This document shows, piece by piece, positions 3,721 through 24,225 of a stretch of DNA of 41,984 nucleotides. Position 1 is the stretch's first letter. Each line of letters opens with the position of its first letter. The stretch is from Gammaproteobacteria bacterium (GTDB lineage: Bacteria > Pseudomonadota > Gammaproteobacteria > Thiohalospirales > Thiohalospiraceae): assembly GCA_015491735.1 (NCBI GenBank), contig WFVH01000040.1, forward strand, positions 1 through 41,984, written 5' to 3'. Position numbers and translations under genes: made by a program. The notes beneath the pieces were generated by a model. It was given only the letters and a program-made list of their open reading frames with translations, did no database searches and was not told where the DNA came from.

Positions 3721-3897
3721 CTAACCCGAACAGATTAACCCGGCAACAAGCGTCGATACGCAGCCCGCGAACGTGCAGACGACCCCTCGCAGGCTGCGCC
3801 GGCAAGGGAATGGCCCTTCCATCCTTCCCGGCGATCCGCGCCGCGATGCGGGCGGATTTCGCAGCCCTGGGTACCGGGTAACCCATGCTCGGGTTAG
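3721..3897. repeat. Possible short element with CTAACCCGA inverted ends (repeat family 2)
   Basis: CTAACCCGA at 3721-3729 is exactly inverted as TCGGGTTAG at 3889-3897. Inside lies a second imperfect inverted pair, TTAACCCGGCAAC (3735-3747) against GTACCGGGTAA (about 3871-3881). The left part resembles the start of the elements at 17390 and 19610 (ACCCGGCAAC, then a CGCAGCC/GCAGCCTGCGG core). Similarity is partial and judged by eye. Confidence 0.4.
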
Positions 3898-11259: not shown

Positions 11260-13960
11260 TCGGGTTGCGTGAATATCCGTGTCGCTTGGGTTGTTCTGGA
11301 TGGTTCGCCAGGGGGCGGATTACGATCTCGAAATTGGAACCAAAATCCAGGCCGTCCACGTTGCTGTAGACACTGACCGCTTGTAATCGTTCAATCGTGG
11401 GATATCCCCCACACGCTTCGCCCGGATCACAGATCAGACCATCGTTGTCCAGATCGGTGCCAGCGATAATAAAATAGCTGCCTTCAGGAACACGATCGAA
11501 CCGGTAATCGTAATGCCCGGCGCGGTTATTCACCGCAATGGTATGCGTGGCCTCCAGGGTAAGCGGGTCGACGAGAAGCACATAGGTGTGACCTGTATCC
11601 CCCTCTTCCCGCCTGTCGCCAACCTGAAGTGTAACAGGAACGGTTAGCGAGCCGGCGTTGTCGGTTTCGAGGGTGATGGTTGTCCGATAGATCCTGTCGG
11701 CCAGATCCGCGCGGTTTACGGTGGCGGTAAACGTTCCTTCGCTGCCCTCCAGCGACCGGGGGGTGACATCCAGCCAGTTAACATCGGTGGTGACACCTGT
11801 GATGGAAAATGATCCACCTCCTGCATTGCGGGTGGTGAACTCCAATTGCGTGACAAACGGGCCAAAGTTGAGACTACCGGAGGGGTTGGTGGAGATAATC
11901 GGTGGAAGTTCAACATCGATGTTCTCTACCGCTTTGAGGGCGTCGAGAAGCCCGTACCCGAACTGCTCGTCCCGGCCCGGGGCGCCAAGATCGGTGGTAA
12001 GCCTTCCTTCCCTCAGCAAGGCGGTGAATTTATCGGAATCCAGCCGTGCATCGAGTGCTTTCATTATCGCGGCGACACCACTTACATGGGGGGCTGCCAT
12101 TGAAGTACCCTGGGCAAAGGAGTAAACAGCTTCTCTGGCGCCGTTGCTCCCATCTGTTTTCACCAGCGTACTCAGAATACCGTCAAACCAGCCGTCCCCA
12201 TCACTGTCGACAAGAGTATCTCCTCCCGGTGCAGCGATATCGATGGTCGACCCGAAATTGGAGTAGGGCGCCTTCTCCCGCGCCAGGGTAACGGCGCTTA
12301 CGGACAGGACACTGTCGTAGGCGGCCGGGTAGCTGGGATTTGCGGAGTTACTATTGCCCGCGGCGGCGACGATCAAGATCCCGGCATCTCTTATGGCGTT
12401 GTACTCAGCCTGCTCGGCCATGGTAAAACCCGCCCCCCCCAGGCTGAGGTTGATGATATCCGCGCGCTGCGGTGGCACCGTTTGGGAGTCGTTGCTCAGA
12501 CCGGCTGCATAGCGCACACCCTGGATGATATCGTACGTGGTCCCGCCTCCCCTGCCAAGCACCCGAATGGGCATGATTTTCGTGTTCGTACCCCAGGAAA
12601 TACCGCTGACACCGATTTTGTTGTTCGACTGCGCACCGATGATTCCGGCCACATGGGTACCGTGAAAGGAGCTTCTCTGCATATTGTCACCGTCACCGGG
12701 ATCGTCCGGATTGTCGTCGATACCATCTCCATCGGCAGCAATTGCCGGATTGGATATGAAATCATAACCGGCGGGGGAAAGATTGGCCTTCAGATCGGGA
12801 TGGTTCAACATGACACCGGTATCGACAACCGCGACAATCACCGGGTGTTCGCTGGCCGCCGGCAAGGCGGTGACGCTCCATGCCTGGGGCAGATTGATCA
12901 ACCGGTAGTTCCACTGCCTGGGGTAGTACTCATCATCGGGAATCGCTGTGGCGTAGCGGAGATAGTTGAGATCAGCCGACTCAATATCGGGCCGTTTACG
13001 CAACGCCTCGACCGTGTCGATGGTTTTGCGCTTGAGCCGCGCCAGGCGGCTACCATCGTCGGCAGCGGTCATGCCACCCGGTTTCAGCGGCAGGGATTGG
13101 CCTTCGTCATTCAGTGTAAACAGCATCGTGCGGCCGGTGGCGCCTTTTTTCTTTTTCAGCCCTGTCGCGGCGGCGAAGTAGGTTGCGTCCGATGCCGCTG
13201 CCATCGGTTGCTTGAAACGGACGATAACCTCTCCAGGGATGAAAGGCGCCTTTGTCTGCAGTGCCGTGGTATTCAGTATGGTAGGCCACCCCACGGTCAG
13301 AAGATAGTTTGAAGCGCCTTCCGATGCATGGATGACAATATAATAAAGACCACTTTTGGGTACCCGTACAGTCTCGGTTCCCGCCAAAGCGCTGACGGAT
13401 CGCGCCACGGGTTGGGTTTCAGGCGTAATGTCCGGCGTATCGTAGATTTCGAGATCGATATCGACCGCGCGAGGGTTTTCCCGGTCATGGTCACTGATAA
13501 ACAGCGTGACAGACTGGCCTTCAGCCAGGGCCATCTGGTAGATATCGGTCGCATCTCCTTCTCCCAAAAAGTTTCCGCCGCCGCTCCCCACCCGTGAAAC
13601 GAACCCTCCCAGCAGAACCGGAACCAACAAGGACTGGGCTGTTTCAGGTGTATCATTAGAGGTGTAGGGAGCTTGTGGATCATTGACATCACTATCCACG
13701 GCGGTGCCGATGGCAGAGGTGATGGTACCGGCCAGTGCATGAAAGGTTGGCTGTCTGTTTCCCGAATTACCGTCACAGGCGGAAACTGCCAATATCAAAC
13801 CGGCAACAAGATAGATCGTATTCAGCCGTCGTGCGCCGGTCTGCGGCAAGGCGGAAAAACAGTGCTGAAGCCGCTCTCCAGCAAGTTTTGCCAATGGAGC
13901 AGCCATAGTCTGCAAACCACCTCTTGTCTCCGCCTGTTTTCGAACACCTGAATGCGACAT
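11252..13960 (-). CDS. Subtilisin-family (S8) serine protease, probable lipoprotein
   Basis: Numbering is from a GTG at 13981 (909 residues); the ATG at 13960 gives 902. The catalytic triad is visible: D387 (VVDTGV), H440 (HGTHVAG) and S627 (GTSMAAPHVSG), with the oxyanion region AAAGNSNS. A hydrophobic segment with lipobox ILAVSAC near residue 69 suggests membrane anchoring after secretion. Residues about 110-230 look like a pre-peptidase C-terminal-type domain, and 245-345 like an inhibitor-like propeptide. After the protease, residues about 690-800 form a BACON-like or Ig-like domain, then a beta-rich tail. The N terminus before the signal segment is unusually long (about 50 residues) and the start is uncertain: a downstream ATG at 13906 or a TTG nearer the signal are alternatives. 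Confidence 0.9.
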   Translation of the reverse strand: MSHSGVRKQAETRGGLQTMAAPLAKLAGERLQHCFSALPQTGARRLNTIYLVAGLILAVSACDGNSGNRQPTFHALAGTITSAIGTAVDSDVNDPQAPYTSNDTPETAQSLLVPVLLGGFVSRVGSGGGNFLGEGDATDIYQMALAEGQSVTLFISDHDRENPRAVDIDLEIYDTPDITPETQPVARSVSALAGTETVRVPKSGLYYIVIHASEGASNYLLTVGWPTILNTTALQTKAPFIPGEVIVRFKQPMAAASDATYFAAATGLKKKKGATGRTMLFTLNDEGQSLPLKPGGMTAADDGSRLARLKRKTIDTVEALRKRPDIESADLNYLRYATAIPDDEYYPRQWNYRLINLPQAWSVTALPAASEHPVIVAVVDTGVMLNHPDLKANLSPAGYDFISNPAIAADGDGIDDNPDDPGDGDNMQRSSFHGTHVAGIIGAQSNNKIGVSGISWGTNTKIMPIRVLGRGGGTTYDIIQGVRYAAGLSNDSQTVPPQRADIINLSLGGAGFTMAEQAEYNAIRDAGILIVAAAGNSNSANPSYPAAYDSVLSVSAVTLAREKAPYSNFGSTIDIAAPGGDTLVDSDGDGWFDGILSTLVKTDGSNGAREAVYSFAQGTSMAAPHVSGVAAIMKALDARLDSDKFTALLREGRLTTDLGAPGRDEQFGYGLLDALKAVENIDVELPPIISTNPSGSLNFGPFVTQLEFTTRNAGGGSFSITGVTTDVNWLDVTPRSLEGSEGTFTATVNRADLADRIYRTTITLETDNAGSLTVPVTLQVGDRREEGDTGHTYVLLVDPLTLEATHTIAVNNRAGHYDYRFDRVPEGSYFIIAGTDLDNDGLICDPGEACGGYPTIERLQAVSVYSNVDGLDFGSNFEIVIRPLANHPEQPKRHGYSRNPNG

Positions 13961-14484: not shown

Positions 14485-14732
14485 GTCGGCCTGGCGGCAC
14501 CAGCCATCTGGATTTCCGCAACCCGGCCACAAGACAGATCGTCTTCAGGACTGCAAGCGTTCCCCGAACAAGACACCACGATGAAAGGCCGCCGTGGACG
14601 CCTGGTACAGTGGTGAAGAAAACCGGTCCGATTTTGCCTGTTCCTTTGGAGAAAGCTGTTTGCCCTATTGACCGGGACAGCTTAATGGACTAACCCTTTG
14701 AATAGTACCCCCTGATGCGCGGAGACAGCCAC

Positions 14733-15719
14733 ATGCAGCGATTCAAAAACATTCTTTGCGTTATAACGGTAAATGCTGAAAACAGCGGCATTCTGGAACG
14801 CGCCACAACCCTGGCGGAAAATAACCAGGCTCTCCTGACAGTGATGGAGGCGATCGAAGAGGTTCCACCCAACACAAAGCTTCTCGAGCAACACCTTCCA
14901 CCCCACAGCCTCAAGGAAAAAATAGTCGAGGAACACCGGATGAGCATAGATGAAAAGGTTGCGCCCTGGAGAAAAAATATTGAGATCCAGACAAGGGCCG
15001 TTATCGGGATACCTTTTCTGGAGATCATTCGTGAAGTCCTTCGCAACAAGCACGACCTGTTGATAAAGCCGGCTGAAGATGGCGGCGTGCTGGATCGGTT
15101 CTTTGGCAGCAACGACATGCATCTGCTGCGCAAATGCCCCTGCCCGGTCTGGATTGTCAAGCCGGATGCGTCCGGAAACTACCAGCGGATAGTAGCGGCG
15201 GTCGATGTCGACGATTTTTATCCGGAAGAGGAGTTGGATGCAAGGCGCCGGCTCAACATTCAGATTCTCCGGATGGCGGCCTCGCTGGCGCTGTCCGAAT
15301 TTGCCGAACTGCACGTCGTAGCGGTATGGGACGCCATTGGAGACCGGTTTATTTCCGGTGTTTTCAATGAGGTTCCCGAGCAAAAAATCACCTCTTACAT
15401 CGAACATGTAAGACGGCAAAACGCCGCCAGCCTGGACAGACTCATGCACGAGGCGATGAGCAGGATGGAGCAGGAAGCCGCCGATTACCTCAAGCCCCGA
15501 ACTCATCTGATCAAAGGAACACCCCGCAAGGCGGTACCCGCTTTCGCCAGGGAGATAGAGGCCGATCTCGTGGTCATGGGAACCGTGGCCCGCACCGGCA
15601 TTTCCGGCCTGTTCATGGGCAACACCGCGGAGACCATTCTCAACCACCTGGACTGTTCGATACTTGCAGTGAAACCGCCCGGTTTCACCACACCGGTCAC
15701 CCTGGAAGAAAGCGGATGA
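14733..15719 (+). CDS. Tandem universal stress protein (UspE-like)
   Basis: A 328-residue cytosolic protein with two UspA domains: about residues 1-145 and 150-325. Each ends in the family's strand-loop pattern: CPCPVWIVKPD in the first, GTVARTGISGLFMGNTAETIL then CSILAVKPP in the second. The second contains the G-x2-G-x9-G-N/S ATP-binding-like motif. I chose the ATG at 14733 because GGAGA lies about 9 nt upstream and MQRFKNILCV is a typical Usp start. The antiporter gene follows 26 nt downstream, so the pair is probably one operon. Pairing of Usp and cation/proton antiporters is common and suggests stress-linked pH or K+ control. Confidence 0.92.
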   Translation: MQRFKNILCVITVNAENSGILERATTLAENNQALLTVMEAIEEVPPNTKLLEQHLPPHSLKEKIVEEHRMSIDEKVAPWRKNIEIQTRAVIGIPFLEIIREVLRNKHDLLIKPAEDGGVLDRFFGSNDMHLLRKCPCPVWIVKPDASGNYQRIVAAVDVDDFYPEEELDARRRLNIQILRMAASLALSEFAELHVVAVWDAIGDRFISGVFNEVPEQKITSYIEHVRRQNAASLDRLMHEAMSRMEQEAADYLKPRTHLIKGTPRKAVPAFAREIEADLVVMGTVARTGISGLFMGNTAETILNHLDCSILAVKPPGFTTPVTLEESG

Positions 15720-15745
15720 AGCCGCAAAAACGGGAGAACTGACGC

Positions 15746-17392
15746 ATGAACCCGGTATTCGACGATGTCTTTACCGAAATGGCGGTGCTGTTTCTGCTGG
15801 CGGCCGCCGTTGGCGCTATCGGAGTACGCCTGCGGCAGCCGCTGATCGTCGCCTTCATCGCGGTGGGTATTCTGGTGGGGCCATCGGTGCTGGGCTGGGT
15901 GTCGGCGAATGACCAGGTCGATCTGCTGGCCAAACTGGGCATCGCGCTTCTGCTGTTCGTGGTGGGGCTCAAGCTGGATCTGCATATCATCCGCACCATG
16001 GGTCCGGTGGCGCTGGCTACCGGGCTGGGGCAGGTGCTGTTCACTTCCGTCATCGGCTACTTCATCGCCATCTCCCTGGGAATGAACCCGGTAACCGCAC
16101 TCTATGTCGCAGTGGCACTGACCTTCTCCAGCACCATCATCATCGTCAAGCTGCTCTCCGACAAACGTGAAGTGGACGCGCTGCACGGACGCATCGCCAT
16201 CGGTTTTCTCATTGTCCAGGACATCGTCGTGGTACTGGTGATGATCGGCCTGACCGCTTTGGGAGAAGCCACCGATACAGCGACACTGGGGCGGGAAGCG
16301 GCAGCGGTATTTGTCAAAGGCAGCCTGTTCATCATCGCCATTGGCCTGCTGATGCGCTATGCGTTGACTCCCCTGCTGCATCAACTGGCCCGATCGCGGG
16401 AGTTGCTGGTGCTGTTCGCCATCGCCTGGGCGGTGGCTCTCGGTGCACTGGGTTCTCATCTGGGTTTCAGCAAAGAGGTGGGCGCCTTTCTTGCCGGGGT
16501 CTCACTCGCCTCCACCCCCTACCGCGAGGCCATTGGCGCCCGCCTGGTGAGTTTGCGGGATTTTCTGCTGCTATTCTTTTTTATCGATCTCGGCGCAGGG
16601 CTGGAGTTGGCGACACTCGGCGCACAAGTTGTACCGGCTATTGTGCTTTCACTGTTTGTTCTCATCGGTAATCCATTGATTGTCATGGTAATTCTTGGCC
16701 TTATGGGCTACCGGAAACGCACCGGATTCCTGGCGGGCCTGACCGTGGCCCAGATTAGCGAATTCTCCCTCATCCTGGGGGCGCTCGGCCTGAGCCTGGG
16801 ACATATCAGCGATGATACCCTCGGACTCATTACCCTGGTCGGGCTGATAACCATCAGCGCCTCCACCTACATGATTCTCTACTCTCATCACCTTTATGAA
16901 TGGATTGCCCCCTGGCTGGGCATCTTCGAACGCAAACAGAGCGTTCAGAAAGAGAAGGAACAGTCCACGGACGAAAACGGCCGGTTCGATGTCATTCTTT
17001 TTGGTTTGGGGCGGTTTGGATCCGGCATTGCGCGAGAGCTGCTGCGGCGTGGCTACCGGGTGCTGGGGGTGGATTTCGATCCCGAACTGGTGCGCCAGCA
17101 AGAAAGGAGCGGTTATGCCACTCGTTATGGTGACGCCGAAGATCCGGAGTTTCTCGCCAGCCTGCCACTGGAGCAAGCTCCCTGGATTCTCAGCAGTGTA
17201 CGGGAGAAAGATATCAATCTTGCGCTGTTACAAGGCTTGCGCACTTTTGACTATAAGGGATGTGCCGTGGTAACGGCGCACAACACCACCGATGCCAGGC
17301 AACTAAAGCAGGCAGGAGCGGCGAGCGTATTCATCCCCTACACCGACGCCGCCACGGAAGCGGTCGACAAGCTGTTTGGTGCAAAAGATTGA
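15746..17392 (+). CDS. Kef-type K+/H+ antiporter (CPA2) with RCK/TrkA-N domain
   Basis: A 548-residue inner-membrane protein. Residues about 1-385 carry the CPA2 exchanger domain with about 12-13 transmembrane segments, including ALTFSSTIIIVKLLSDK and GFLIVQDIVVV in the conserved core and FLAGVSLASTPYRE. Residues about 410-545 form a TrkA-N (RCK) domain with the nucleotide motif ILFGLGRFGSGIARELL. It resembles YbaL/KefB types that exchange K+ for H+ under ligand control. The stop codon TGA (17390-17392) is the first three bases of a 13-bp inverted terminal repeat (17390-17402), so the native C terminus may have been altered at its very end. Confidence 0.92.
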   Translation: MNPVFDDVFTEMAVLFLLAAAVGAIGVRLRQPLIVAFIAVGILVGPSVLGWVSANDQVDLLAKLGIALLLFVVGLKLDLHIIRTMGPVALATGLGQVLFTSVIGYFIAISLGMNPVTALYVAVALTFSSTIIIVKLLSDKREVDALHGRIAIGFLIVQDIVVVLVMIGLTALGEATDTATLGREAAAVFVKGSLFIIAIGLLMRYALTPLLHQLARSRELLVLFAIAWAVALGALGSHLGFSKEVGAFLAGVSLASTPYREAIGARLVSLRDFLLLFFFIDLGAGLELATLGAQVVPAIVLSLFVLIGNPLIVMVILGLMGYRKRTGFLAGLTVAQISEFSLILGALGLSLGHISDDTLGLITLVGLITISASTYMILYSHHLYEWIAPWLGIFERKQSVQKEKEQSTDENGRFDVILFGLGRFGSGIARELLRRGYRVLGVDFDPELVRQQERSGYATRYGDAEDPEFLASLPLEQAPWILSSVREKDINLALLQGLRTFDYKGCAVVTAHNTTDARQLKQAGAASVFIPYTDAATEAVDKLFGAKD

Positions 17393-17603
17393 CCCGGCAA
17401 CCAATGTATCGCTTCCGTAATGCAGCCTGCGGGTGTACACAGGGCCACCCCTTCCTGAAAAAACAACCGGTTGGGGGAAAACAGGCGTGGCGCCTGTCCG
17501 CGCTGCGGCCCCTGGCACGGGGATACAACCCGTTTTGGCGAGCTGCGCCTTGATACCCGTCACGGCTGCCGCCCTGAAGCCGATATATCTGGTTGCCGGG
17601 TCA
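17390..17603. mobile_element. Repeat family 2 element with perfect 13-bp terminal inverted repeats
   Basis: TGACCCGGCAACC at 17390-17402 is exactly inverted as GGTTGCCGGGTCA at 17591-17603, giving a 214-bp element with no ORF of its own. The left end supplies the antiporter stop codon. The right end lies 8 nt from the DUF454 stop codon. A core of about 60 nt (GCTTCCGTAATGCAGCCTGC onward, then an A6 run) is shared with the element at 19610-19750 at roughly 70-75% identity by eye. No transposase is nearby, so it would be non-autonomous. Confidence 0.6.
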
Positions 17604-17611
17604 GTCGTTAT

Positions 17612-18004
17612 TCAGCTTGCCCCATCCTTCTCCAACTTCACCAGTTCGGTGGTTTTGATGCTGGCAATAAAAATGACGTGGAATAGCAGTATCGCCACAA
17701 CAACAAGTTTCAGAAAAAATATTTCGATGAAAAACAGAATCGACGAACCGCCCACGACAACAATCGTGGCGATTGCCAGCAACTTCGTCTTCCTGGGAAG
17801 GCTGCGGGTCTCTTGCCAGTTTTTTATCAACGGGCCAAACAGCCGGAGATTCAGCAACCAGCCATGGAACCGGGGGGATGAGCGCGCAAAACAGGCAGCA
17901 GCCACCAACAGAAAAGGGGTCGTGGGCATAACCGGCAGAACCAGCCCCGCTCCACCCAGCGCAACAAACAGAAAACCCAGCGATATCAAAACGATCCTGG
18001 ACAT
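17612..18004 (-). CDS. DUF454 (YbaN-like) inner-membrane protein
   Basis: A 130-residue protein starting MSRIVLISLGFLFVALGG, with the family signature LPVMPTTPFLLVAAACFARSSPRFHGWLLN at residues about 24-53 and two further hydrophobic segments at about 77-110. DUF454/YbaN proteins are small inner-membrane proteins of unknown function. I chose the ATG at 18004 rather than the longer frame from 18088, because the first 28 residues of the latter are not family-like and not hydrophobic. It stands alone on the minus strand between the antiporter and the efflux operon, with family 2 repeat ends at both sides (17591-17603 and 18296-18308). Confidence 0.82.
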   Translation of the reverse strand: MSRIVLISLGFLFVALGGAGLVLPVMPTTPFLLVAAACFARSSPRFHGWLLNLRLFGPLIKNWQETRSLPRKTKLLAIATIVVVGGSSILFFIEIFFLKLVVVAILLFHVIFIASIKTTELVKLEKDGAS

Positions 18005-18295
18005 CGGCAGAACACCTTTCAGCTCCTGTTCAGCGGAAGCAGCACTGTTTTGGCCCCTTGCCACCGCCACGGGAACAGCAGTCACCACGGAGGATCACCC
18101 TGCTTCGGAAAACTGGCGCCGGAAAACAGGAAACCACCCAACCCGTCACGGCCCATGACCTCAACGGGATACACCCGCAAAAAGGAGCAGCCCTGGGCCG
18201 ATTTGGCATATCGCGCCATCCGGGTAACAGATGTTGATCGAACCTACCCAAACAGCATAGTAAAAAAACTGCAAGTTGGCCACACCCCGCGATCC

Positions 18296-18308
18296 GTTGC
18301 CGGGTCAA
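18296..18308 (-). repeat. Isolated family 2 terminal repeat
   Basis: GTTGCCGGGTCA at 18297-18308 matches the right end of the 17390-17603 element and is followed by a similar TATTCAGCTT. No clear left partner was found, so it may be a remnant end. Confidence 0.4.
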
Positions 18309-18358
18309 GCGTATTCAGCTTTGATTCAGGTTGGGCTGCTAATCTGCGCAAATCTTCT

Positions 18359-18372
18359 ATCAATCGATTGAT
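18359..18372. promoter_or_regulatory. Perfect 14-bp palindrome upstream of the efflux operon
   Basis: ATCAATCGATTGAT is a perfect palindrome ending 13 nt before the tolC-like ATG, overlapping another (TTGATCAA). It is a possible operator. It is not an FNR box, because the half-sites are in the opposite order. AGAGG just downstream is the Shine-Dalgarno sequence. Confidence 0.4.
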
Positions 18373-18385
18373 CAACAGAGGTTGA

Positions 18386-19594
18386 ATGAAAAAGGCATTG
18401 TACTACTGGTTGATTCTCGGGATTGCCTGTGCCGTCCCGCCCGCGCTTGCTGCTCCAACCCTGGGCGAGGTAATCGAGGCCGCGGTGCAACGGCACCCCG
18501 AGCGGAAACTCTCCGTGGCGCGCCAGCAGATTGGCGACGGCTACCGGAGACAGGCCGATGCCTGGCTGGGCGGCGATCCCGCCATTGGCCTGGCCTACTG
18601 GACCGATGAGTTTGGCGGTGAGTACGGCTACCGCGAATCGGAGGCGAGCGTTGCGCTGCCCTTGTGGCTGCCAGGCCAGCGCAAGGTACGGAGGCAATTG
18701 GCCGACACCCTGCAAAGTCAGGCAGTGGCGTTGACGCAGCGGCTGAAATGGCAGGTGGCTGGCGAGGTAATGGAGCAGATCTGGGCGCTGCGGATGGCGG
18801 AGGAAGAGTTCTCTCTGGACAAACAGCACCTGAATTCCGCCATCACATTGGTTAAAGCGGTGGCGCGGCGTGTCGAGGCGGGTGAGCTGCCCCGTAGCAA
18901 ACTACTCATGGCGCAACAGGAGAAATTGAGCCGCGAAATACAGGTGCAAAATGCGCAGACCAATTTGGCGGGCAGGCAGGCGGCCTGGTTAAACTATACC
19001 GGAATGACCGCTCTTCCCGCCCCGTTCGTCATCGAGCCCGCCCCTTTCGAAAAGATAAGCACCCGGCATCCGTTGCTGGAACTGGCTCAACTCGATGTAA
19101 AACGGGCATCTGCGCAGAAGAGAGCTGTGTACATTGCCCGGCGGGAAAACCCGGTCTTTTCGCTGTACGTCAAACGCGATCGGGGCACCCGGCAGGAGTC
19201 CTATAACGACTCGCTGGGTGGGGAAATCACGGTGCCGTTGGGCAGCTCCACCCAGAACGCACCGGCACTGGCTGAAGCCAGTGAACGGCTGGCCCGCAGC
19301 GAAGCTGCCCTGGGGAAGGTCAAAAGGGAGTTGGAGCTGAAACTGATTCACGCACGCCAGGAGCTGGAGCGCGCGAGCAAGGCGCTGGCCCTGGCGGAGC
19401 AGCGGAATCAGCTGGCACAAAAAAGGATGAACATGAGCCAGCGCGCCTTTGAGCTGGGTGAAACCGACCTCTACCTGTTGCTGCGGGCCCGGGAGCAGGC
19501 TATCAATGCCGCCCGGGATCTGAGCCACAGCCAGGTGCAGCGCCAACGCGCCAGCGCACAGTACAACCTAGCCCTTGGAGTAATACCCGAATGA
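18386..19594 (+). CDS. TolC-family outer-membrane efflux channel (CusC/CzcC-like)
   Basis: A 402-residue protein with a signal peptide (hydrophobic to about residue 22, cleavage near ALA-A). It contains the long helical hairpins of the outer membrane efflux protein family: residues about 30-190 and 230-395, with Gln/Glu/Arg-rich coiled segments such as KVKRELELKLIHARQELERA. It would form the outer-membrane trimer of a tripartite metal efflux pump. No lipobox is seen, unlike CusC. It ends at 19594 and overlaps the upstream ATG of the adaptor ORF by ATGA, so the operon is tightly coupled. Confidence 0.9.
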   Translation: MKKALYYWLILGIACAVPPALAAPTLGEVIEAAVQRHPERKLSVARQQIGDGYRRQADAWLGGDPAIGLAYWTDEFGGEYGYRESEASVALPLWLPGQRKVRRQLADTLQSQAVALTQRLKWQVAGEVMEQIWALRMAEEEFSLDKQHLNSAITLVKAVARRVEAGELPRSKLLMAQQEKLSREIQVQNAQTNLAGRQAAWLNYTGMTALPAPFVIEPAPFEKISTRHPLLELAQLDVKRASAQKRAVYIARRENPVFSLYVKRDRGTRQESYNDSLGGEITVPLGSSTQNAPALAEASERLARSEAALGKVKRELELKLIHARQELERASKALALAEQRNQLAQKRMNMSQRAFELGETDLYLLLRAREQAINAARDLSHSQVQRQRASAQYNLALGVIPE

Positions 19595-20841
19595 AACCCT
19601 TTCCGTTATTGACCCGGCCACCGGGCATATGGACCTCCGGTGCTGTGCGCACGCCTGCAGCAAGCTTCGATAACGCCGCCTGCGGGCGTACTCACAACGG
19701 CCCATCCTCGAAAAAACGGCCTGTTGTCCCGAGACCCATGTATCGGGTCACCGAATTGATAATAATCGCTACCCTCCTGCTGCCGGGCCTGTGCGGAGGC
19801 ACGGTAGTGACAGACCCGCTTCCCGTCTCCGCGGAACAGCGGCAGGCGCTGGGCATCAAGACAGCGCCGGTCGAAGCGGTCGAGCAGTCATGGAGCATCC
19901 CCTACCCCGCCCAAGTCGTTGTACCCAATGCTCAGTTACGCGTGGTCAGCGCGCTGCAGTCCGGCCTGCTGGAATCACTACTCGTGGCTGAAGGGCAAAA
20001 GGTAAAAAAGGGACAGGCGCTGGCGATTATTCAGAGTCCACAACTTCTTGAACAGCAGCGCAACTATCTTACCGCGTTGAGCCGGCTGGATCTGGCCAAA
20101 ACCGACTGGAAACGTGATGAACAGCTTTTCCAGGAGGGGATCATTGCCGAACGGCGCTATCTGGAGTCTCTCTCACGCTACCGCCAGGCCAGAACGGAAG
20201 TGGAGCAATACCGCCAGGCGCTGAATCTGGTAGGCATGGGCAAACAGTCACTACAGAAGCTGGCCAGCCAGCGGCGCCTGTCAGGTTCGCTGACGGTACG
20301 AGCGCCACTCGATGGGGTGGTGCTGGAACAACTGGCCACACCGGGGCAACAGCTAAACCCCCTCGATCCCATCTACCGGATTGGCAGACTGGTGCCGTTG
20401 TGGCTCGAAATCCAGGTGCCGCTCAAAGAGCTGGGGAACACTTCGGTAGGCTCGATGATCAGGGTAAACAGCACGCCCCGGCTATTCGGCAAGGTGATCA
20501 CCATTGGCCGGATGGTGCATGGCGTCGATCAAGGCGTCATGGTCCGTGCCGGGATTACTGAGGGGGCGGAGCATCTGCATCCCGGCCAGTTCGTGCAGGT
20601 GGAGTTGGCCCGGACCAGCGACGGACAGAGTTTTCGTATCCCCAGCACCGCCCTGGTCCGCCAGGGAGACAGGGTGTGGATTTTCGCCGAACATCCGGCA
20701 GGGTTTCAGCCAGTTGCCGTAACCGTCATCGCGGAAGAGGCGGACGCCGTTGTGGTCAACGCGGCTCTCAATCCTGATGACCGCATCGTGGTCGCCGGTA
20801 CCGTAGCGCTCAAGGCTATCTGGCTGGAGGGAGACGAATAG
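19591..20841 (+). CDS. RND efflux membrane-fusion protein (CusB/CzcB-like)
   Basis: The adaptor has a barrel-sandwich and lipoyl-like region (GLLESLLVAEGQKVKKGQALAII and, later, GSLTVRAPLDGVVLEQLATPGQQL), an alpha-hairpin between them (about residues 155-215) and beta-barrel segments (LWLEIQVPLKEL). The ATG at 19591 overlaps the tolC-like stop. The hydrophobic signal segment (TELIIIATLLLPGLCGG) only begins near residue 54. The DNA between, 19610-19750, is a family 2 element of 141 bp, a multiple of 3, so the frame stays open. The functional start is either 19591 (416 residues with an odd N terminus) or the ATG at 19738 inside the element (367 residues), which restores a normal signal peptide but has a weak ribosome-binding site. 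Confidence 0.88.
   Translation: MKPFPLLTRPPGIWTSGAVRTPAASFDNAACGRTHNGPSSKKRPVVPRPMYRVTELIIIATLLLPGLCGGTVVTDPLPVSAEQRQALGIKTAPVEAVEQSWSIPYPAQVVVPNAQLRVVSALQSGLLESLLVAEGQKVKKGQALAIIQSPQLLEQQRNYLTALSRLDLAKTDWKRDEQLFQEGIIAERRYLESLSRYRQARTEVEQYRQALNLVGMGKQSLQKLASQRRLSGSLTVRAPLDGVVLEQLATPGQQLNPLDPIYRIGRLVPLWLEIQVPLKELGNTSVGSMIRVNSTPRLFGKVITIGRMVHGVDQGVMVRAGITEGAEHLHPGQFVQVELARTSDGQSFRIPSTALVRQGDRVWIFAEHPAGFQPVAVTVIAEEADAVVVNAALNPDDRIVVAGTVALKAIWLEGDE
19610..19750. mobile_element. Repeat family 2 element inserted in the adaptor gene (141 bp)
   Basis: It starts TGACCCGGCCACC (19610-19622), 11 of 13 bases or better matching the 17390 element, and ends with CGGGTCA (19744-19750), the inverted end. The internal core (GCTTCGATAACGCCGCCTGC, then GGGCGTAC and an A6 run) aligns with the 17390 element. 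Its 141-bp length is a multiple of 3. Removing it would join MKPFPLL to TELIIIATLLLPG, which reads as a normal signal peptide. Confidence 0.5.
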
Positions 20842-23800
20842 TGTTGGCCAGACTGGTTCAGTTCTCCCTCACCCAGCGGCTGCTGATGCTGCTGGCCATT
20901 GCGCTGCTCTCCGGTGGCGGCTGGTTTGCGTTTCAGAATACCCCTATCGACGCTTTTCCCGATGTCTCCACGACCCAGGTAAAGGTGATCATCAAGGCTC
21001 CCGGCATGACGCCGGAAGAGGTGGAGGCGCGAATTACCGCACCGATTGAGGTGGAGCTGCTGGGGATCCCCAATCTCGGCATGCTGCGCTCTGTAGCCAA
21101 GTATGCGCTGACCGATATCACCGTCGATTTTACCGAAGGCACTGATATCTACTGGGCCCGTCAACAGGTAGCGGAACGCCTGAGTGGCATATGGGAGGAT
21201 CTGCCCGCGGATGTATCCGGTGGCATGGCGCCAATGACCACTCCGCTGGGTGAGATGTTCATGTTCACCATCGAAGGGGGAGGACTCTCTCTCACCGAGC
21301 ACCGCGATCTGCTGGACTGGGTGATCCGCCCCGCTCTGCGCACCGTCCCTGGCGTGGCGGATGTCAACGCCCTGGGCGGACTGGCGCGCACCTTCGAGAT
21401 AGTACCGGACAGCGCCCGCATGATGGCACGTGGCATCAGCCTGGAGATGCTGCAAGGCGCGCTGCAGAACAACAACCGCAATGACGGCGCCGGACGTTTG
21501 AATGATGGCGAAGAGGTGCTGCTGGTGAGAACCGAGGGCAGCATCCGCACCCTTGAGGATGTGGCCGCCATCGTGGTGCGCCCCGATCCCGCCCAGCCGG
21601 TGCGGATAGGCGAAGTGGCCGATATACGTGTCGGTTCGCTGACCCGTTATGGCGCCGTCACCCACGATGGAACCGGTGAGGTGGTTCAGGGGCTGGTGCT
21701 GGGCCTGCGTGGCGCCAACGCCCGCGAACTGGTGGCCGGCTTGCACAGCAAGCTCGACGAGCTGAGATCCGGCCTGCCGGAGGGGGTCGAGATCAACGTG
21801 TTCTATGACCGCGGACAACTGGTCGATCAGGCGGTCGGTACTGTGACCAAAGCGCTGGGGGAAGCGATCATCCTGGTGCTGATCCTGCTGTTGCTGTTTC
21901 TGGGTGGCTGGCGCGCCGCACTCACTGTGGCGCTGGTGCTGCCGCTGGCGGCGATGGTGACCTTTATCCTGATGTACTTTTTCGGCATGTCAGCCAACCT
22001 TATGTCGCTCGGCGGGCTGGCCATCGCCATCGGCATACTGGTGGATGCCGCGGTGGTCGTGGTGGAGAATATCGTCAGCCATCTGGCGCGGCAGCGCGAA
22101 CAGGGAAAGGGAGGACTGCCGCGCCTGCATCTGATCTATCGCGCCGTGCGTGAGGTATCGGCGCCGGTCACATCAGGCATCCTGATCATCATTATCGTGT
22201 TCCTGCCACTGCTCACGCTGCAGGGTCTGGAGGGCAAGCTGTTCACCCCGGTCGCCCTGACCATCGTGTTCGCACTTTCCGGTTCGCTGCTGCTGTCACT
22301 GACCGTGGTGCCGGTACTGGCCTCCTTTCTGCTGGGCAAGGTCTCCCACCAGGAACCCTGGCTGGTGCGCAAGATGCAAACGATCTATATTCCGGTACTC
22401 AACTGGTCACTGGACAACAGCCGGATCGTCCTTGGCCTGGCGCTGGCCGCCATGCTGGCAGCCGCCGGCCTCTATACGCTGATCGGCAAGACGTTCATGC
22501 CCGTCATGGACGAGGGGGACATGATCGTGCAGCTGGAGAAACTCCCCTCGATCAGCCTGGAGCAATCCATCGCTATCGACATGCGGTTTCAGAAGGCACT
22601 GATGGAGCGCGTTCCGGAGGTGATCGGCGTGGTGTCACGGGCCGGCAGCGATGAGCTGGGACTCGACCCCATGGGGCTGAACGAAACCGACAGTTTTCTG
22701 ATTCTCAAACCCCGGGAGGAGTGGATAGCTTCTGACAAGGAAGCGCTGGCCGACTCCATCCGCGAGGTGATGGCTGACTTTCCAGGTGTCTCCTTCGCCT
22801 TTACACAACCGATCCAGATGCGGGTCGACGAGATGCTCACCGGTGTGCGGGGCGACCTGGCCATCAAGGTGTTTGGGGACAACCAGCAGGAGCTGAACCG
22901 CGCCACCGACGCCATCGTCGACATCATCCGGCAGATTCCCGGTGCAGACGAGGTCTACAGCCCGCGTAACGAAGGGGCGCAGTACCTGCGCCTGGTAGTG
23001 GATCGCCTCGCCACCGGCCGCATGGGGCTTGATGTGAACACGCTGGAAGATGCGTTGCGCGCCCAGGTGGAAGGGCTGCGCCTCGGGACGGTATATGAAG
23101 GCAGCCGCCGTATTCCACTGCTCCTCAAGGGACCCGCCTCGCTACGCGATTCACCGGCCAGCTTTGCCGGCCAGTCCATCGTACTGGCCGACGGACAGCG
23201 GGTTCAACTGGCGGACATCGTCCACCTGGAGCGAACCGAAGGGCCGGTGTCGGCCAACCGCGAAAACGGGCACCGCATGGCGGTGGTGATCGCGAATGTC
23301 TCCGGCCGCGATCTGGTGGGATTCGTCGATGAGGCCAGACAGCGGGTAATGGAGAAGTACAGTCTGCCCACCGGCTACTATCTGGAGTGGGGCGGACAGT
23401 TCGAGAACCAGCAGCGGGCGGCACAGCGGCTCTCCATCGTGGTACCGGTGGCGCTCGGGCTGATCTTTCTGATTCTGTTCTCCACCTTCCACTCGGTGCG
23501 CCAGGCGGCGCTGGTACTGAGCAACATCCCCTTCGCCATGATCGGCGGCATCGTCGCGCTGTGGCTGACCGGCGAGTACCTCTCGGTGCCCGCCTCGGTG
23601 GGCTTTATCGCCCTGCTGGGCATCGCCGTTCTCAACGGGGTGGTGATGGTAACCTGGTTCAATCAGCTCATCGCCCTGGGGCACCCGCTGGCCGAAGTAG
23701 TCGTCGAAGGGGCCAGACGCCGTCTGCGGCCGGTAATGATGACCGCCAGTATCGCCGCTTTCGGCCTGGTACCGCTGCTGTTCGCTACCGGCCCCGGATC

Positions 23801-23915
23801 CGAGATCCAGCGCCCGCTGGCCATCGTGGTGATTGGCGGGCTGGTCAGCTCCACCCTGCTGACGCTGGTAATACTGCCAATCCTCTACCGCCGGTTCGGC
23901 GTCAAGGGAGCGTGA
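20841..23915 (+). CDS. Heavy-metal efflux RND pump (CusA/CzcA family)
   Basis: A 1024-residue inner-membrane HME-RND transporter. The N-terminal TM1 is followed by the periplasmic PIDAFPDVSTTQVKV typical of heavy-metal RND. The TM4 region has GGLAIAIGILVDAAVVVVEN, and the second half has FIALLGIAVLNGVVMV. The family pumps Cu+, Ag+, Zn2+, Co2+, Cd2+ or Ni2+; this motif set does not settle the metal. PIQMRVDEMLTGVRGDLAIKVFG near residue 650 is well conserved. The start is a GTG at 20841, overlapping the adaptor stop by one base. DUF3240 follows directly, an association typical for HME pumps. Confidence 0.93.
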   Translation: MLARLVQFSLTQRLLMLLAIALLSGGGWFAFQNTPIDAFPDVSTTQVKVIIKAPGMTPEEVEARITAPIEVELLGIPNLGMLRSVAKYALTDITVDFTEGTDIYWARQQVAERLSGIWEDLPADVSGGMAPMTTPLGEMFMFTIEGGGLSLTEHRDLLDWVIRPALRTVPGVADVNALGGLARTFEIVPDSARMMARGISLEMLQGALQNNNRNDGAGRLNDGEEVLLVRTEGSIRTLEDVAAIVVRPDPAQPVRIGEVADIRVGSLTRYGAVTHDGTGEVVQGLVLGLRGANARELVAGLHSKLDELRSGLPEGVEINVFYDRGQLVDQAVGTVTKALGEAIILVLILLLLFLGGWRAALTVALVLPLAAMVTFILMYFFGMSANLMSLGGLAIAIGILVDAAVVVVENIVSHLARQREQGKGGLPRLHLIYRAVREVSAPVTSGILIIIIVFLPLLTLQGLEGKLFTPVALTIVFALSGSLLLSLTVVPVLASFLLGKVSHQEPWLVRKMQTIYIPVLNWSLDNSRIVLGLALAAMLAAAGLYTLIGKTFMPVMDEGDMIVQLEKLPSISLEQSIAIDMRFQKALMERVPEVIGVVSRAGSDELGLDPMGLNETDSFLILKPREEWIASDKEALADSIREVMADFPGVSFAFTQPIQMRVDEMLTGVRGDLAIKVFGDNQQELNRATDAIVDIIRQIPGADEVYSPRNEGAQYLRLVVDRLATGRMGLDVNTLEDALRAQVEGLRLGTVYEGSRRIPLLLKGPASLRDSPASFAGQSIVLADGQRVQLADIVHLERTEGPVSANRENGHRMAVVIANVSGRDLVGFVDEARQRVMEKYSLPTGYYLEWGGQFENQQRAAQRLSIVVPVALGLIFLILFSTFHSVRQAALVLSNIPFAMIGGIVALWLTGEYLSVPASVGFIALLGIAVLNGVVMVTWFNQLIALGHPLAEVVVEGARRRLRPVMMTASIAAFGLVPLLFATGPGSEIQRPLAIVVIGGLVSSTLLTLVILPILYRRFGVKGA

Positions 23916-23916
23916 A

Positions 23917-24225
23917 ATGACTGCACAAGAGACCCTGCTCTCCATTATCGTTTCACCCGCCATCGAAGACGGGTTGATAGACTGGCTGCTGGCCGCTGAG
24001 GATGTTACCGGTTTTACCCGCTTTCCGGTCAGCGGGCACGGCAGCTCGGCTCACTCTTCCATGAGTCCGGCCGAACAGGTGGCTGGCAGCCGGCGCAAGA
24101 CGCTGTTCCAGACCCATTTGCCGCAACCACAGGCACTACGCCTGATCAAAAAGCTGGAACAGGATTTTGGCAACTGCGGCGTACACTATTGGCTGACACC
24201 GCTATTGGCCGGCGGACATCTATGA
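23917..24225 (+). CDS. DUF3240 family protein (HME-RND-associated)
   Basis: A 102-residue soluble protein of the DUF3240 type, with a ferredoxin-like pattern. ETLLSIIVSPAIEDGLIDWLL at residues 4-24 resembles the family start, GFTRFPVSGHG lies in the middle, and the end is a short strand (NCGVHYWLTPL). DUF3240 genes accompany heavy-metal RND pumps and have a PII-like size, but the function is unproven. The start is the ATG at 23917, one base after the pump stop. Its stop overlaps the ATG at 24222 of the cytochrome b561 gene. Confidence 0.82.
   Translation: MTAQETLLSIIVSPAIEDGLIDWLLAAEDVTGFTRFPVSGHGSSAHSSMSPAEQVAGSRRKTLFQTHLPQPQALRLIKKLEQDFGNCGVHYWLTPLLAGGHL

Follow-up and report, generated by a model that had tools for sequence, protein, structure and literature searches.

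The efflux adaptor gene of an uncultured gammaproteobacterium carries a copy of a dispersed palindromic repeat, inserted in frame into the codons of its signal peptide, and about 19 exported proteins of the same genome carry this repeat in frame at or inside their signal peptides. We consider it very probable (roughly 0.87) that the element is a MITE-like selfish repeat, resembling the Rickettsia palindromic elements (RPE), whose insertion into the adaptor survived by virtue of a permissive n-region and a signal-like repeat end. The window, i.e., the whole stretch of 41,984 nucleotides that was analysed, is contig C40 of a 2.43-Mb metagenome-assembled genome in 101 contigs; its nearest named relatives that have this adaptor are metagenome-assembled Gammaproteobacteria/Chromatiales. 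The efflux operon and its surroundings contain the following features.

17388..17605, + strand: full-length copy of the repeat family, lying between the antiporter and DUF454 genes and forming a near-perfect hairpin of 218 nt (termini 17386-17402 and 17591-17607; fold z -6.6)
18295..18311, + strand: solitary right end of another repeat copy, about 75 bp upstream of the OEP gene (terminus match)
18386..19594, + strand: gene of an outer-membrane efflux protein (OEP), overlapping the adaptor start as ATGA (open reading frame, Pfam)
19591..20841, + strand: HlyD_D23/CusB-type efflux adaptor of 416 aa, open throughout, with the insert after MKPFPLL (Pfam PF16576, E 4e-31)
19610..19750, + strand: diverged palindromic-repeat copy of 141 bp, TGACCCGG...CGGGTCA (sequence, genome-wide matches, orthologue gap)
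19738..19740, + strand: internal in-frame ATG within the adaptor element, a candidate alternative start giving MYRVTELIIIATLLLPGLCGG (sequence)
19764..19797, + strand: what is left of the native signal peptide's hydrophobic core, IIATLLLPGLC (alignment to orthologues)
20841..23915, + strand: large membrane-pump open reading frame of 1024 aa, putatively of RND type by position and sequence

Three repeat copies surround this operon (17388-17605, 18141-18311 and the adaptor copy). The first sits at the 3' end of a Na/H-exchanger/TrkA_N antiporter gene, whose TGA stop codon (17390-17392) lies inside the left end of the repeat; the second, near the OEP gene, is either a decayed copy or a solitary right end. 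Other terminus-like matches in the window were found at 3732-3748, 13800-13825 and 14521-14555.

In the adaptor, TGACCCGG (19610-19617) and CGGGTCA (19744-19750) enclose exactly 141 bp, confirming the initial annotation, which had described a segment of 47 codons that keeps the frame. Its proposal that the segment shares a core with the element at 17390 also holds, with 71% ungapped identity over 63 nt and 74% over 66 columns (E 1e-4). In silico deletion of exactly these 141 bp left MKPFPLSELIIIATLLLPG, not the MKPFPLL-TEL sequence that had been expected. The element does supply the new ATG at 19738 pointed out there, in frame as codon 50 of the adaptor; a strong Shine-Dalgarno motif is absent from the sequence before it (CCCGAGACCC-ATG). 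Possible products would be a 416-aa precursor with a leader of about 66 residues or a 367-aa protein from the internal start, and LTRPPGIWTSGAVR is the stretch predicted to occur in adaptor peptides if translation reads through the repeat.

A clear adaptor orthologue (best E 1e-161 or better) was present in five same-genus genomes, including the source genome itself. The other four (G006, G004, G005, and G001) showed no trace of the segment and encode short, plain signal peptides such as MKLFPLFIATILLSLSGGA, the N termini reading MKLFPLFIATILLSLSGGAVTAKP / MKLFPLFIATILLSLSGGAV in G006, MRVSLILIAFLLGSATAALAAEK in G004 and G005, and MRHFLISTALLLGSMSAAA / MRHFLISTALLLGSMSAAAV in G001. These are the uninterrupted N termini that the initial annotation had named as the proof of an insertion in the signal peptide, and among the same-genus orthologues no relative was found with the same 141 bp conserved at the protein level. 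DNA alignments to G006 and G004 contained a single clean gap of about 150 bp, with the end of the preceding gene, the start codon and the first codons conserved. Compared with its orthologues, the adaptor has a net gain of about 150-153 bp (50-51 codons), extending to about 19763, which makes the actual insert a little longer than the 141-bp core. Downstream of the insert, the pairwise dN of 0.12 and dS of 0.90 to G006 indicate that the adaptor is under purifying constraint, which by itself neither dates the insert nor proves present function. That the stretch is instead a native N-terminal extension of the adaptor would suit an open frame beginning at a conserved, operon-coupled ATG, but the four orthologues without it, the DNA aligning on both sides of one gap and the presence of the same sequence at many unrelated loci leave this reading next to no probability.

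Within its own genome the adaptor segment matched many places by BLASTN (best other E 5.5e-14). The copy itself is unique, the next best having about 75-78% identity over part of its length, and its right end has diverged (PMYRVTE instead of YLVAGL). The termini of the family are ATTAACCCGGCAACC...GGTTGCCGGGTTAAT, the shared ends as read from the copies being ATTAACCCGGC(A/C)AC...GT(T/G)GCCGGGTTAAT, and most copies measure 60-300 bp. Allowing up to 2 mismatches, the terminus pattern GGTTGCCGGGTYARTNR matched 216 times in the genome and its reversed control 10 times. Our census, based on pattern searches and on 567 kb of stretches around matches, yielded 66 candidate paired copies, mostly of 59-330 bp and some of them chance pairs, with at least three internal subfamilies. 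A stricter terminus pattern matched 7-117 times per genome within the genus (8 genomes) and 0-4 times per genome elsewhere (29 genomes); the repeat is restricted to the genus.

Searching between matching ends in the 567 kb of stretches around matches revealed neither a transposase nor an autonomous partner. A target-site duplication amounts at most to a 2-bp AT (55% of bases agree), inseparable from the palindromic end, and the empty site of ZnuA closes without a duplication. A short, non-autonomous palindromic repeat would have multiplied within the genus, presumably transposed by an enzyme acting in trans. A second, unrelated dispersed inverted repeat (GCTGAATAGTTAC / GTAACTATTCAGC, motifs TTTCAGGGG and CGTTGAAAAATGG) often adjoins copies of the family, as seen in the flanks L002, L011, L017, L018, and L125, e.g., near G000:C57:11110.

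Copies are palindromic, and three folded copies formed near-perfect hairpins with z values of -6.6, -10.9, and -20.4. Such strong hairpins might be expected of a functional regulatory or RNA element (an attenuator or RNase III site) in the leaders of export genes, the in-frame reading being secondary. However, no Rfam family was found over 15000-24000, hairpin strength was indistinguishable in fused and other copies (P 0.88), most copies lie outside export leaders, many of them intergenic, and the hairpin of the adaptor copy is partly decayed (z -2.2). We regard a regulatory role as unlikely.

All 263 terminus matches in the 567 kb were read outward in three frames. In the frame encoding V-A-G-L, 17 run straight into an exported protein with no start codon between, except for the DUF2782 fusion (C95), which has an ATG directly after the repeat. 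These 17 comprise MlaC; ZnuA; TamA; a PBP-like phosphate-type (PstS-like, C22) binding protein; a YkuD L,D-transpeptidase; an AhpC-TSA/TlpA protein (C98); DUF2782; a DUF4398 lipoprotein; TPR, NHL, and CXXCH-cytochrome proteins; a beta-helix lipoprotein; FlgO-like and LptE-like lipoproteins; and three with no or a sub-threshold domain match. By Pfam, most of the fused genes encode exported proteins. Adding a second MlaC (C80) and the window adaptor to these recognisable right ends gives the count of 19; the census favours insertions close to gene starts, as a long downstream frame was required. Two terminus matches were rejected, C67:8454 as a fusion (a chance terminus-like match without repeat body) and C79 (L158) as an interior insertion (a chance match in a binding-protein-like gene).

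While the V-A-G-L frame was used by 17 of 17 fusions, the C-R-V-N frame was used by none. Genes downstream in the latter frame (HtpG-like, PyrD-like, CrcB-like, and others, judged by eye) keep their own ATG and were therefore not accepted as fusions. If the two stop-poor frames were equal, the probability of finding all 17 in one of them would by our own calculation be about 8e-6, and a single frame is what selection would be expected to impose. Comparing the four terminal codons with the consensus, fused copies had 12 synonymous and 4 other changes and the remaining copies 119 and 167 (Fisher P 0.017, approximate, as chance matches are part of the comparison set and the window copy was left out), which supports selection on the terminal codons in fused copies. 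In the majority of fusions, the 12-mer of highest hydrophobicity includes sequence from the repeat end. An automated hydrophobicity count (24 versus 0) adds no independent evidence, as the residues V-A-G-L are hydrophobic in themselves, and only five of these cases rest on sequence beyond the repeat.

These data bear on the possibility that the repeats lie only in 5' untranslated regions beside exported genes, with the true starts downstream and the open frame an accident of stop-poor sequence. The many intergenic copies, the C-R-V-N-frame copies preceding genes with their own ATG and the DUF2782 fusion with its immediate ATG would fit, and this fusion and some others could be plain 5' insertions. 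As a general explanation it is improbable, since most fusions lack a start codon between the repeat and the hydrophobic core, a single frame is used throughout, and the repeat splits the signal of ZnuA, MlaC, and the adaptor, with the native start and one part of the signal before it and the remainder after it.

Same-genus orthologues, examined for eight genes (with a joint query of seven proteins), had mostly ordinary signals. Empty sites were seen at the DNA level for the adaptor, ZnuA, and the L,D-transpeptidase and at the protein level for MlaC and the DUF3301 protein. In ZnuA the insertion is clean and lies within the hydrophobic core: G004 reads SMLQFIFRLISL-FAVSVSMIQAA (SMLQFIFRLISLFAVSVSMIQAAQPP), while the protein here reads SMLQFIFRLISL-[44 codons]-IVVSISIAQAA, that is, SMLQFIFRLISL[LLTRQ...YVVAGL]IVVSISIAQAAQPP. 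The L,D-transpeptidase has NMEKVLIWLGGIWLGLISTGCYALSF in the orthologue and SKMGN[LLTRQ...SLVAGL]MPVWLAGIWLGILSGNCLALSF here, and MlaC has VRRCILFLGLMLLLWGVAA in the orthologue and MRRYP[LTRQ...LVAGLV]MALMLLFLPAAMASA here. For DUF2782, G007 (L262) has an in-frame repeat body, G002 (L261) a remnant of the repeat body and G004 (L259) a short repeat-end remnant, while G005 is clean; its signal peptide thus appears to have been struck in more than one lineage, with a shared or an independent origin both possible. In G001, another species of the genus, an SBP_bac_3 protein (L273:1418-3085, G001:C298) begins with the repeat-derived MRARFLSLRAIFVVTGLILIF, the repeat forming its predicted signal peptide; its gene is an open frame of 1337 aa, of which 556 aa were examined.

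The fusions in G001 and G007 also argue against an assembly artefact, in which the repeat would have joined unrelated contigs or reads of a metagenome-assembled genome. In its favour, assemblies commonly go wrong at many-copy repeats, and the ends of several contigs lie close to copies. The adaptor copy, however, is unique, its length could be spanned by a single read pair, and the sequences on either side of it are parts of one orthologous gene, so that we judge such an error very improbable.

Coding insertions were also found outside signals. The interior of the DUF3301 protein holds an in-frame copy of about 50 residues (L305:556-1152, G000:C69:20297-20428) that is missing from G006 and G003. 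In G003 (L278:1474-1848, C157) the repeat is joined in frame to the C-terminal portion of a BrnT-type toxin domain, perhaps a disrupted brnT gene. Signal peptides are therefore the main, but not the sole, tolerated coding site.

Under the preferred reading of a selfish repeat inserted in frame, the adaptor gene would be intact, with a single frame running from the native start and n-region through the repeat into the native hydrophobic core; alternatively, translation might restart at the ATG supplied by the repeat. Adaptor expression or topology may be changed, and the fused proteins are probably still competent for export. Signal-peptide n-regions are permissive. Two features might then account for tolerance: the n-region would accept almost any insert, and the outward-facing terminal repeat would encode a basic residue followed by a hydrophobic stretch (e.g., MLVVLKPIYLVAGLI and QQTGTRRLNTTYIVAGLI), much as a signal peptide begins. 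Since the element is palindromic, both ends would encode the same signal-like stretch in either orientation. The right end of the adaptor copy has diverged, so for the adaptor the permissive n-region carries most of this argument and the hydrophobic end applies weakly.

A more far-reaching version, possible but doubtful, is that the repeat acts as a mobile signal-peptide donor. Its terminal repeat would have been kept or shaped so that either orientation supplies a start codon together with a basic n-region and a hydrophobic stretch (MLVVLKPIYLVAGLIV and related sequences), insertions would replace or rebuild export signals, and the PstS-like C22, the TlpA protein C98 and the SBP_bac_3 protein of G001 would depend on the repeat for secretion. 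MLVVLKPIYLVAGLIV and TRRLNTTYIVAGLI are predicted candidates for stand-alone signals.

In-frame coding repeats are known from Rickettsia (RPE) and from enterobacteria (PMC2759123, PMC2229807). RPEs (Ogata et al., 2000; PMC2229807, PMC10969869) are selfish palindromes of about 100-150 bp, in many families, each with an open frame and lying in frame within conserved protein genes of one genus. The repeat described here likewise has an open frame and is inserted in frame into conserved protein genes; it is likened to an RPE in its working and not classed as one, the host genus being gammaproteobacterial. RPEs are reported from conserved genes, metabolic ones included, while the coding insertions found here lie almost all at the signal peptides of exported proteins and use one terminal-repeat frame. 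For YPAL/RU-2 of Yersinia and RU-1/ERIC, the translated MITE sequence has a hydrophobic cluster (Delihas, 2007, PMC2759123), and the predicted signal of Yersinia YPO1552 is partly MITE-derived (PMC2759123, PMC2229807). That case concerns one putative exported protein and small hypothetical ORFs, whereas here about 19 genes are involved, most in conserved Pfam families, and the orthologues of the genes examined have an uninterrupted signal. Like bacterial MITEs (RUP, Correia/NEMIS, QMITE1/2), the repeat is short, multi-copy and mostly intergenic, with terminal inverted repeats and no transposase gene; unlike them, it showed no partner insertion sequence and no clear target-site duplication. QMITE insertions have been described at gene ends and in hypothetical ORFs.

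In the literature covered, which excluded subscription journals, we found no report of a repeat family recurring in signal peptides of conserved exported proteins. The novelty is this recurrence, in-frame coding MITEs and one Yersinia signal-peptide precedent being already known. As a rule, selfish DNA either stays out of genes or inactivates them. In this genome, about 19 exported proteins have acquired copies of a single repeat family in their coding sequence, among them proteins of expected importance to the cell (TamA, ZnuA, MlaC). In genomes of this kind, start codons will be misplaced by automatic gene calling. The insertions serve as naturally occurring, replicated tests of the load of additional sequence that a Sec signal tolerates, and they suggest that signal peptides have been exploited as a tolerant landing zone for a selfish repeat, which may offer a route for rewriting export signals.
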